Shown: positions 52,908-58,080 of the stretch, piece after piece
Position numbering within the stretch: the first letter of the stretch is position 1
How the letters are laid out: the number at the start of each line of letters is the position of its first letter
From: Fluviicola taffensis DSM 16823
Lineage (GTDB): Bacteria > Bacteroidota > Bacteroidia > Flavobacteriales_D > Crocinitomicaceae
Direction: 5' to 3'
Assembly: GCF_000194605.1 (NCBI RefSeq)
Contig: NC_015321.1
Location: 1,550,001 to 1,614,000 of the forward strand
Length of the DNA stretch: 64,000 nt
The notes under the pieces: model-generated
The model's input: the letters and a program-made list of their open reading frames with translations, nothing else
The model's database searches: none
What the model was told of the DNA's origin: nothing
Made by a program: the position numbers and the translations under genes

Positions 52908-53531
52908 TTAAATTATTAAAGTTTTTAGCTTTTCTTCTGTAACAATCTGTGTACTTTCAATAACCTTCACAGTTGGCGGCTCTTCAAATTTGAACTTTTT
53001 TAATTCTTTTATCAAATCATCAAATTCTTCATGAGTAGCTACTACAACTTCATCTAAACCAATTACATGTCCTGATTTAATTTTAGCTTTTACACTTTTT
53101 GCTTCTCTTTCTTCTAAAGTTACAAGAAAACTTAACGCTTTTCTATGAACATATTTGAGGGCTATTGATTCTAAATCTGCTTGCTTGTAACGTTCTCTTA
53201 AACTGGTCTTTGCTGAGATGCATATAGGACCACGTTCAGAAGAATAAAACATTAGGTCATAAATAACATTTGGCACGAATGCGACCTTAGCACTAATATA
53301 AACTGGTAATATCCCTTCTCTTACAAATAAAGTTGCCAATAAGTACTCAAATATTTTTCCATTAAGGTTGCTATTCGTTTCTGGAAAATTTAAATATTTC
53401 TGCCAACATGAACTTATATATTCAGAGGGGCTTGAATATTCAATAGTGAGAAAATTATCAAATAACGCTTCAAAAATTTTATCTGCTTTACCATTACTTA
53501 AAGTGATGCCTAATTTATTTAATTGACTCAT
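52908..53531 (-). CDS. Putative type II restriction endonuclease
   Basis: 207 residues. A PD-(D/E)xK-like core can be placed: helix GKIFEYLLATLF with Glu62, then YDLMFYSSERGPICISAKTS with Asp92 and Lys108 (the usual Glu before Lys replaced by Ser106). The conserved-looking SLRERYKQADLE that follows resembles type II enzymes that pair with m5C methylases. Its start overlaps the stop of the cytosine methyltransferase gene by 4 bases, as in a restriction-modification operon. The recognition sequence cannot be read. The catalytic assignment is inference and the enzyme might be inactive. Confidence 0.65.
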   Translation of the reverse strand: MSQLNKLGITLSNGKADKIFEALFDNFLTIEYSSPSEYISSCWQKYLNFPETNSNLNGKIFEYLLATLFVREGILPVYISAKVAFVPNVIYDLMFYSSERGPICISAKTSLRERYKQADLESIALKYVHRKALSFLVTLEEREAKSVKAKIKSGHVIGLDEVVVATHEEFDDLIKELKKFKFEEPPTVKVIESTQIVTEEKLKTLII

Positions 53532-54796
53532 TTTCTTGCTTGAATTATTTGAATGATTTTTTCTGCCGTTGCCTGAATAGCTGGAACAGCCACAGAATTT
53601 CCAAATTGCTTGTAAGCTGATGCATCAGCAACTGGAATCACAAAATTGTCAGGAAAACCTTGCAAACGGGCCCATTCTCGTGGTGTCATCTTACGGATTC
53701 CTTCTCTATTTACATTTCCCTTAATATGAGTTACAGGAATGAAATTGGTCAATCGATCATCCACAACTAAATTTCGTTCTCTTCCCATTCCTCCACAAAC
53801 CACTGCATTTGCAATTCCATCATCTGGAATGATTTCAAATCCAAAACCATTTCCTTTACTTGCATGCCTTTCTTTGTGTTTTACCAATGTATTCAAATAA
53901 GTTTCAGACAAATAATATTTAACCGAAACTTCTTTCTCTTCTCGGACATCTTGGAAAGTAACAGATTTAGAAACAGGAAGCGGGTATTCAAAGGAATCAA
54001 TATTCAAATCCTTTCTAAACCCAACGATAAAAATGCGTTCTCTATTTTGAGGAACTCCAAAATTTTTGGCATTCATCACTTTTGGATCAGGAACATAATA
54101 TCCTAAATCTTCTCGAAGAACATTTAAAATCGTTTTTAATGTCTTTCCTTTATCATGATTAAATAATCCTTTAACGTTTTCTAAAAAAAATGCTTTGGGT
54201 TGCTTTTGCTTAATAATTTCTGCAACGTCAAAGAAAAGCGTTCCTCTTGTATCCTCAAAACCACCACGCTTTCCAGCTATTGAAAATGCTTGACAAGGAA
54301 AACCACCACAAAGAACATCAAATCCATCTGGAATAAAAGCTTTCGTAGAATCCTTCGTAATATCACCAAATGGAATTTCTCCAAAATTGGCTTGGTACGT
54401 TTTTTTTGCTTGTTCATCCCACTCACTGGTAAAAACACATTTTCCACCTAGGTTTTGTAACGCCAATCTAAATCCGCCAATTCCTGCAAAAAGATCGATA
54501 AATTTAAATTTGGGTGCAATGGGTTCAGGAAAAGGAACATCTTTCTTAAAATCAAAAAGAAAATATTGAAGAGCCTCTTCAGCTACCTGATTTGTTGTTT
54601 CATTATCTGGATAATTATACTCAAGCATTCTCTTAACTTGATTTGTAGCTTCATCTTTATAAAAGTGAGAGACTCCATTTTTATTATGAAGATAATGAGT
54701 AAGAGCAGCATTTCCATGCTCTGAACCAACTTTTACGTTGATAGAACAAGGCTCTATAACAAATTTTGGTTTAACAACTTTGGACTTTGAACTCAT
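53528..54796 (-). CDS. DNA (cytosine-5) methyltransferase, type II restriction-modification
   Basis: 422 residues. A ~95-residue N-terminal extension of unknown role precedes motif I FIDLFAGIGGFR (about 99-110). Motif IV GGFPCQAFSIAGKRGG has catalytic Cys168, motif VI is FFLENVKGL (about 203) and motif VIII is FGVPQNRERIFIVG. The target-recognition region contains IANAVVCGGMGRERNL. Motif IX/X ends with WARLQGFPDNFV and KQFGNSVAVP. All catalytic motifs are intact. TAACTTTG at 54828-54835 should drive both genes. Methylase first and nuclease second would help to protect the host during establishment. Confidence 0.95.
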   Translation of the reverse strand: MSSKSKVVKPKFVIEPCSINVKVGSEHGNAALTHYLHNKNGVSHFYKDEATNQVKRMLEYNYPDNETTNQVAEEALQYFLFDFKKDVPFPEPIAPKFKFIDLFAGIGGFRLALQNLGGKCVFTSEWDEQAKKTYQANFGEIPFGDITKDSTKAFIPDGFDVLCGGFPCQAFSIAGKRGGFEDTRGTLFFDVAEIIKQKQPKAFFLENVKGLFNHDKGKTLKTILNVLREDLGYYVPDPKVMNAKNFGVPQNRERIFIVGFRKDLNIDSFEYPLPVSKSVTFQDVREEKEVSVKYYLSETYLNTLVKHKERHASKGNGFGFEIIPDDGIANAVVCGGMGRERNLVVDDRLTNFIPVTHIKGNVNREGIRKMTPREWARLQGFPDNFVIPVADASAYKQFGNSVAVPAIQATAEKIIQIIQARK

Positions 54797-56573: not shown

Positions 56574-57014
56574 ATGAATGCATTGGATTCCATTGATAAA
56601 CAAATTATTGCGCTTCTACAATCGAACGGAAAGATGAATAACAAGGAGATTGCTGGTAAAATTGGTTTATCGGTTACTCCTACTTTTGAACGCATCAAAC
56701 GTTTGGAGCGTATTGGAGTCATTCAAGGGTATACGGCGCTGATAAACAGAAAGGCAATTGGTAAGGAACTAAAAGTCGTTTGTCAAGTGAGTTTAAAAAG
56801 TCATGAGAAAGAAGGAATTGATGTGTTTGAAAGCGCCATTAAAGAATTGTCGGAAGTGAGCCATGCGTATCATGTGGCGGGCGCTACAGATTATATGCTT
56901 ATTATCGAAGTTGGGAATATGGAAATGTATCAGGATTTTTTGAAGAATCAATTGGCAGGCATTCCGCATATTGGACAAGTGAATAGTAGCTTCGTGATGT
57001 CAGAGTTGAAGTAA
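56574..57014 (+). CDS. Lrp/AsnC-family transcription regulator
   Basis: 146 residues. N-terminal HTH of the family: LDSIDKQIIALLQSNGKMNN, KEIAGKIGLSVTPTFERIKR. The RAM/ligand-binding domain follows with CQVSLKSHEKEGIDVFESAI, SHAYHVAGATDYMLIIEV and HIGQVNSSFVMSELK. Lrp/AsnC proteins form dimers or octamers and sense amino acids. It is isolated, with the target unknown; the D-2-hydroxyacid dehydrogenase and amino-acid genes are several kilobases away. Confidence 0.94.
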   Translation: MNALDSIDKQIIALLQSNGKMNNKEIAGKIGLSVTPTFERIKRLERIGVIQGYTALINRKAIGKELKVVCQVSLKSHEKEGIDVFESAIKELSEVSHAYHVAGATDYMLIIEVGNMEMYQDFLKNQLAGIPHIGQVNSSFVMSELK

Positions 57015-57015
57015 A

Positions 57016-57645
57016 GAGGTGGAGGCCACGAATGCACGATTTTTTTACTCGGCTAACGCGCTCGCACTTCTTTTAAAACCCATCCTTTTATTTTGTTATT
57101 CAACTTTCGGGATGCTTGAATAACGTATCCGCATTTATTTTAATTTAAGGTTGTTTCAAATGAACTTTTTATCTATCTTAAAGTAAATGAAGCAATTAGT
57201 ATTAGAACGTGAAGCCTATGAAATAATAGGTTTATGTATGGAAGTTCACCGAAATTTAGGACATGGTTTTTCCGAAATCGTTTATAAAGACGCTTTAGAA
57301 TATGAATTAAAGAACGAGAAAATTCAATTCACGCGAGAACAGGAATTCAAGGTTCATTACAAGGACATCATTCTGCCACATCATTTCTATGCAGATTTCG
57401 TGGTTTTTGATTCTATCATCTTAGAAGTAAAGTCTACCAGTCAACTTACAAAATCCCATTATGCTCAAGTCATTAATTATTTAGCTGTTTCAGACTTACC
57501 ACTGGGGCTCTTGATAAACTTCAATGAAGATAGCCTGAAATACAAACGATTTGTACTATAACCTTCAAATCTTCCTAATAAAACAAGAAAATTAGCGAGC
57601 GCGTTAGCCGAGCTGGAATTCGTGAATTCGTGGCTATATCCTCTC
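57016..57645. mobile_element. Inverted-repeat-bounded unit containing a GxxExxY nuclease gene
   Basis: Left arm: GCCACGAATGCACGA, an 8-base spacer, then CTCGGCTAACGCGCTCGC (57049-57066). Right arm, reversed: GCCACGAATTCACGA, then CTCGGCTAACGCGCTCGC (57595-57612). The inner 18-mers are perfect inverted copies, and outer AGAGG pentamers also match. The whole unit is about 630 bases and encloses a single gene. No target duplication was identified. The mobility is an inference from this layout. Confidence 0.6.
57187..57561 (+). CDS. GxxExxY family protein (PD-(D/E)xK nuclease-like)
   Basis: 124 residues, full length for TIGR04256/PF13366. It has the defining GxxExxY in GHGFSEIVYKDAL (about 27-33), the putative catalytic Asp and Glu-x-Lys in ADFVVFDSIILEVKS, and the closing YLAVSDLPLGLLINF. 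The fold resembles Vsr/Holliday-junction-type nucleases. The biochemical role of the family is not established. The gene is enclosed by inverted repeats, so it may be the mobile or maintaining component of that element rather than a resident gene. Confidence 0.9.
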   Translation: MKQLVLEREAYEIIGLCMEVHRNLGHGFSEIVYKDALEYELKNEKIQFTREQEFKVHYKDIILPHHFYADFVVFDSIILEVKSTSQLTKSHYAQVINYLAVSDLPLGLLINFNEDSLKYKRFVL

Positions 57646-57741: not shown

Positions 57742-58080
57742 ATGTCTAGTAACACAGGAAATATGATTATCGCACTTCTAGCAGGTGCCGTAGTCGGAGC
57801 AGGAATCGGAATTTTATTGGCTCCCGATAAAGGATCAGTAACTCGTCAGAAATTGAAAGATGGCGTGGATAAATCAAAAGGTGATTTGATGGATAAATAC
57901 CACGAATTGGCACAATTGCTTCATCGCAAGGCTGAAAATGCTGGTGAAAACATCAGTGAATTTTTGGACAATGCGATTTCTAGCGGAATTCATGAAAAAG
58001 ATGAGTTGATTTCACTTTTAGAAGAAAAATTAGAACTTTTGAAAAAAGGAGCTAAAAAAGCGGCAGCAACAGCAAAGTAA
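57742..58080 (+). CDS. YtxH domain-containing protein
   Basis: 112 residues. N-terminal hydrophobic helix (MIIALLAGAVVGAGIGILLAP, about 9-29) with the DKGSVTRQKLKDG turn typical of YtxH proteins, then a long amphipathic helical region (DKSKGDLMDKYHELAQLLH, EKDELISLLEEKLELLKKGAKK). It is probably a membrane-anchored helix-bundle protein, linked in other bacteria to general stress. First gene of a three-gene operon; the next start is one base after its stop. Confidence 0.85.
   Translation: MSSNTGNMIIALLAGAVVGAGIGILLAPDKGSVTRQKLKDGVDKSKGDLMDKYHELAQLLHRKAENAGENISEFLDNAISSGIHEKDELISLLEEKLELLKKGAKKAAATAK

Follow-up and report, generated by a model that had tools for sequence, protein, structure and literature searches.

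An arm-bounded class of GxxExxY genes that looks like an undescribed minimal mobile element with a predicted nuclease as its only gene

GxxExxY genes enclosed by inverted arms form a class that looks like an undescribed minimal mobile element, the only gene of which encodes a predicted nuclease. One such unit lies in the window, by which we mean the whole 64,000-nucleotide stretch analysed here (positions 1,550,001 to 1,614,000 of contig NC_015321.1 from Fluviicola taffensis DSM 16823, the genome of which is a single contig of 4.63 Mb). The initial annotation had proposed that this unit is a minimal mobile element. For the class, that proposal is well supported by recurrence, by gene-free multicopy derivatives and by absence from some orthologous sites, whereas the window copy itself is old and lies between lrp and ytxH in most Fluviicola species. 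The explanation we prefer, which we judge evenly balanced between right and wrong, is that of a widespread minimal mobile unit made of arms and a putative nuclease, devoid of a transposase, in which the nuclease would recognise and cut the arms. In a full-text literature search for the family name we found no function described for GxxExxY, in agreement with the annotation, and in the literature on MITE, REP and homing elements we found nothing on the arm-bounded class.

From the outside inwards, the window unit consists of an outer arm, an inner arm of 18 bp, a spacer that contains a conserved block, the open reading frame, a short spacer and the inverted arms (Table 1). The inner arms had been described as perfect inverted copies, and are indeed complementary at 18 of 18 positions; the outer arms differ by the single base expected, GCCACGAATGCACGA (57025-57039) matching its inverted partner (57620-57634, read inward GCCACGAATTCACGA) at 14 of 15 positions. 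GxxExxY had also been taken to be the sole gene of a 630-base unit: no other open reading frame of at least 80 aa lies within it, but the unit is slightly smaller, at about 610 bp. When the two flanks are aligned locally in inverted orientation, the best score is 47, above all of 2,000 dinucleotide shuffles (mean 18.7, maximum 38), so the match exceeds chance; these shuffles, together with the recurrence of the arms at other loci, rule out a chance palindrome. A known RNA family was ruled out as well, Rfam matching neither the window region nor any of 15 loci. To judge from its conservation, the block directly before the start codon is probably the gene's own promoter.

Table 1. Features of the window unit and its two adjoining genes (positions in the window)
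Feature	Position	Strand	Remarks
Whole arm-bounded GxxExxY unit	57025..57634 (610 bp)	+	Between lrp and ytxH
Left outer arm, two 8-nt tandem units GCCACGAAT-GCACGAT	57025..57040	+	91% mean pairwise identity, five orthologues
Left inner arm CTCGGCTAACGCGCTCGC, subterminal motif, TAAC core	57048..57065	+	95.6% identity, five orthologues; motif covaries in relatives
Conserved block directly before start codon (probable promoter)	57150..57186	+	Conserved columns of orthologue alignment; spacer otherwise diverged
GxxExxY gene, 124 aa, predicted Cas4-like PD-(D/E)xK nuclease	57187..57561	+	Profiles, predicted fold, dN/dS ~0.03
Right inner arm GCGAGCGCGTTAGCCGAG, left inner arm inverted	57595..57612	-	88.9% identity, five orthologues
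Right outer arm ATTCGTGAATTCGTGGC, left outer arm inverted	57618..57634	-	~91% identity, five orthologues
Lrp/AsnC regulator	56574-57014		Adjoins unit
YtxH gene	57742-58080		Adjoins unit

The window protein belongs to the GxxExxY family (TIGR04256, 146.4 bits against a cut-off of 35) and matches PF13366, PDDEXK_3 (130 bits, cut-off 22). Residues G25, G27, E30, Y33, D70, E80, K82, Q94 and Y98 are invariant among 11 diverse members. The annotation of the protein as PD-(D/E)xK-like holds, the catalytic residues of the superfamily being kept and the best structural matches being nuclease folds. The AlphaFold2 model (pLDDT 95.4) has as its best match SSO0001, a Cas4 (Foldseek E 3.7e-4; Z 10.0, rmsd 3.2, 98 residues), followed by restriction-endonuclease-like folds, and PADLOC gave a weak sequence match to Cas4b (E 0.0018). 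The predicted fold is closest to Cas4. Restriction enzymes, lambda exonuclease and Holliday resolvases also appear among the structural matches, reflecting a common fold that is uninformative on function. Unlike Cas4 nucleases, GxxExxY is half the size, has one cysteine instead of the four-cysteine iron-sulphur site, and has lrp, ytxH and a dehydrogenase as neighbours in place of CRISPR-Cas genes; because of the single cysteine and the lack of CRISPR neighbours, we did not file it as a Cas4.

The arm-flanked layout is the rule for GxxExxY genes beyond the window locus. The source genome has five GxxExxY genes, four with clear inverted arms of their own and the fifth (L012) with a degenerate arm pair recognised by eye only. 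Across 52 Fluviicola loci, the best inverted flank match has a median score of 38, compared with 21 for flanks mispaired between loci, and 35 of the 52 score higher than 99% of random window positions. At 76 loci in named genomes, all found with the window gene's own subfamily, the median is 39, against 23 for mispaired flanks (p 1e-33) and 21 for nearby positions (p 1e-44), and a score of at least 34 is reached at 58 of them versus 1.4% of nearby positions. These loci are mostly from Bacteroidota, with a few labelled Scalindua, Lentisphaerae, Akkermansiaceae or Chlamydiota (MAG labels only). The arms are built of tandem units such as CACGAATT, CACAGATG, CGCAGATT, CACAAAGG and CACATAGG, spaced 8-10 nt apart. 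The more similar two proteins are, the more similar their arms tend to be (rho 0.28, against at most 0.145 in 500 permutations), a trend in which shared ancestry and co-recognition are not fully separated. The wide GxxExxY alignment contains no conserved stretch.

Eight plasmid records carry a GxxExxY gene, all below 60% identity, and the phage collection gave no match, which rules out phage cargo. By eye, near-perfect arms directly adjoin the gene in a copy on a Bacteroides plasmid. In Sphingomonas parapaucimobilis, a plasmid-borne unit (L334) that also has arms by eye lies in an operon for fatty-acid synthesis, with fabD on one side and fabG on the other; its right arm overlaps the 3' end of the GxxExxY gene. 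On the Fusobacteria plasmid pZRK30-1 (L331), a repeat of about 50 bp, similar in sequence on the two sides, flanks GxxExxY in direct and not inverted orientation. Two GxxExxY genes of equal score lie 699 bp apart on one strand in another genome (G019:C10:165220-165570 and 165919-166269), a probable tandem duplication of the whole unit.

The outer ends of the elements start near TTTC|CC, and the flanking 10 bp are A+T-rich. Within the Fluviicola arms, the inner motif has the core SCTAMCGS, in which the S pair is always C/G or G/C (68 and 38 of 106), the search pattern having permitted all four combinations. In a first class of this motif, complementary 5-bp flanks form 13 different perfect stems. 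Of the distinct stems, 64% contain at least four pairs, compared with 16% for mispaired halves (maximum of 2,000 permutations, 36%). The inner arms of Fluviicola are, on this pattern of substitution, predicted hairpins with covarying stems. A second class, found at both ends of the window unit, has the flanks GCTCG and CTCGC, read on the other strand as CGAG and CGAG; structurally, these could form a tandem G.A stem. Outside Fluviicola, the TAAC/TACC hairpin motif occurs 0 times in 22.8 kb near the gene, which rules out the inner hairpin as a universal feature. One similar hairpin adjoins a Treponema plasmid copy and may be there by chance.

Copies of the arms occur both with and without the gene, two situations that the initial annotation had thought worth searching for. 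Sites matching the consensus CCRCDRATKCRCDRAT number 15 in the source genome, 51 in G001, 40 in G002, 103 in G010 and 149 in G003; overall, 15 to 149 sites are present in 7 of 14 genomes, while a reversed-pattern control gives 0-1 in every genome. Many of these sites pair into palindromes at about 70-140 bp. We read 39 palindromes of 68-210 bp in three genomes: they have common ends, and copies are up to 94% identical at unrelated flanks. Short, multicopy, bounded by terminal inverted repeats and free of any ORF, the gene-free copies are MITEs. The sole congener without GxxExxY (G007) has zero arm sites. GxxExxY is present in 77 of 177 genomes examined in the order, and at least three arm sites occur in 20 of the 77 genomes with the gene versus 4 of the 100 without it (Fisher p 2e-5, phylogeny ignored). 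Many genomes having only other GxxExxY subfamilies have no arms of the CCRCDRATKCRCDRAT type, as would be the case if every subfamily were tied to arms of its own.

Some of these counts fit a different account, in which GxxExxY is a passenger and the arms are a MITE family moved by another transposase, genes being captured or riding along. Two genomes (G051 and G052) have 14 and 16 arm sites and no GxxExxY gene, which shows that arms can remain, or be mobilised, in its absence; there are many MITEs per gene; and the 51 sites of G001 are mostly of the CACAGATG or CGCAAATG types, poorly matching its only GxxExxY gene, which has CACGAATT arms. In G002, the copy with the window arm type is a frame-broken pseudogene, yet 40 arms are present. 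Against a passenger role, arms of this kind enclosed no gene but GxxExxY in the loci that we read, and several diverged GxxExxY subfamilies each sit in their own arm type. A RAYT/Y1 transposase as the mover was rejected, G002 having 40 arms and no Y1 match and G007 three Y1 matches and no arms; the presence of Y1, the transposase type compared with arm counts, is not related to the number of arms. A target-site duplication would be expected from most DDE transposases, and among 38 MITEs direct flanking repeats did not exceed mispaired controls at any offset or length. We consider the passenger account unlikely.

Two gene-free copies in the source genome (L005 and L006) lie inside a larger inverted-repeat element, the arms of L005 being AACAGTAGGCACG...CGTGCCTACTGTT, an arrangement that reads as a nested or composite MITE. 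In G003, short palindromes such as ATCGGCTAGCCGAT are found close to units and MITEs (flanks of L082, L229, L242 and L245), and may be terminators that serve as targets, or belong to another repeat.

Orthologous sites are found full, inverted, gutted, arms-only and empty, so that both the occupied and the empty sites suggested as a check exist. The lrp-ytxH site is occupied in G000, G001, G006, G009 and G012, gutted in G005 and G013, and lacks the unit in G002. In G011 (L020), the arms at this site have kept their place while the GxxExxY segment between them is turned around with respect to its flanks, suggesting recombination between the arms. Another unit in G005 (L055) follows directly on a terminator-like hairpin with its T-run. 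In G012 the aligned orthologous sequence is continuous across the junction and has no unit, and in G013 the left arm is kept, the rest being missing. At a further site, the full gene is present in G013, a stub of it between arms in G006 and the arms alone in G012; G002 and G009 have neither gene nor arms. These states indicate presence and absence, internal deletion down to the arms, and inversion, with the direction of each change left unfixed. Single-copy occurrence with conserved flanks in all relatives, the pattern named beforehand as arguing against mobility, is thus seen in part at the window site, but not for the class, and even at the window site G002 is without the unit.

Between species, silent divergence of the window GxxExxY gene is saturated, as is that of lrp, which indicates an old copy. 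It has been inherited vertically and sits at the lrp-ytxH site in most Fluviicola species. In the window unit the arms are more conserved than the gene, identity over five species being 89-96% for the arms, 79% for the gene and 14-48% for the spacers. With a dN/dS of about 0.03 on the one hand, and loss of the catalytic Asp in G012 (D70G) and a stop at codon 7 in G006 on the other, strong constraint coexists with scattered decay. Since vertical inheritance and a constraint equal to that of lrp also fit a host function, the window unit might have been domesticated, GxxExxY working for the host, for instance in DNA repair or defence, and the arms serving as a control region or terminators. The conservation of the arms likewise counts in favour of this reading. 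Yet the D70G and codon-7 lesions, the gutted units of G005 and G013, the lack of a unit in G002, the scattered distribution over the order and the hundreds of gene-free arm copies all count against domestication, which we regard as improbable.

Among known systems, MITEs and their autonomous parents are similar in having short palindromic multicopy derivatives that share ends with a longer gene-bearing element, and in the internal deletion series at one orthologous site; they differ in that the only gene of the putative parent here encodes a Cas4-like nuclease and not a transposase, and in the absence of a target-site duplication. A classic DDE insertion sequence is a poor description for both of these reasons, the unit containing GxxExxY only. 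REP/RAYT and IS200-IS605 (Y1 HUH) elements share subterminal hairpins, the lack of target-site duplication and many non-autonomous copies, but GxxExxY units have inverted, not directly oriented, ends, and no Y1 gene lies within the unit or tracks the repeats. Free-standing homing endonuclease genes resemble the units in that a nuclease is the only gene and that gain, decay and loss occur at a conserved site, unoccupied and decayed alleles existing at GxxExxY sites; they are unlike them in the many different sites per genome, the inverted arms and the gene-free copies.

The 23S rRNA intervening sequences (IVS) with an S23 ORF of Coxiella and Leptospira have terminal inverted repeats, short tandem units by the ORF and a single small ORF, as GxxExxY units do. 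In Coxiella, the terminal inverted repeats form a 28-bp stem and tandem heptamers precede the S23p ORF (PMC4990558). GxxExxY units differ in lying outside rRNA, at scattered intergenic sites such as that between lrp and ytxH, and in encoding a predicted nuclease, not a four-helix bundle. Genes of the S23/four-helix-bundle family in Fluviicola (TIGR02436, L086-L115), an unrelated family packaged alike, have, at 15 of 30 loci, inverted arms that outscore 99% of random positions, with 7-bp tandem units such as AATTACG and ACTAAAG that recall the heptamer plan of the Coxiella IVS (PMC4990558). The comparison gains weight because these genes, too, sit between inverted tandem-unit arms. An element of this kind acting at the RNA level, with arms pairing in the transcript, RNase III cutting the stem and the ORF as selfish cargo, would agree with the equivalent layout (PMC4990558), the S23-family arms and the covarying stems, but is very unlikely given the DNA-nuclease-like predicted fold, the promoter-like conserved block inside the unit, the lack of an Rfam match and wobble pairs (G.T versus A.C) that, in the few cases available, have no evident strand bias.

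In the mobile-unit explanation that we prefer, each unit comprises two inverted arms of tandem units (8-10 nt spacing) and one gene, encoding the Cas4-like GxxExxY, and Fluviicola units have in addition a subterminal hairpin, the loop of which is TAAC or TACC. That the nuclease acts on the repeats, as the initial annotation had suggested, is our best inference, being the most economical link between protein and repeat. The nuclease would recognise its own arms, through the extruded hairpin, the tandem units or the two together, and would nick or cut there; the unit could then spread via repair copying or insertion at A+T-rich sites near gene ends, gene-free copies being moved in trans. The window unit is an old copy at lrp-ytxH, as would fit a slow, homing-like turnover in which units are gained, decay and are lost. 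That GxxExxY itself mobilises both its gene and the gene-free palindromes, via arms and extruded hairpins and with neither a transposase nor a recombinase, we propose only tentatively, with somewhat more doubt than belief. For a family so common in the order, a candidate DNA substrate, namely its own inverted arms, together with the scattered palindromes, offers a testable role. Such a role on the arms would account for a large class of Bacteroidota repeats, and if the nuclease moves the unit, this would be a mobile element working without a transposase.

Elsewhere in the window (52908-54796, minus strand), a C5 cytosine DNA methylase gene lies beside a gene with a weak, sub-threshold match to a BsaWI-type restriction enzyme, the two forming a probable type II restriction-modification pair.
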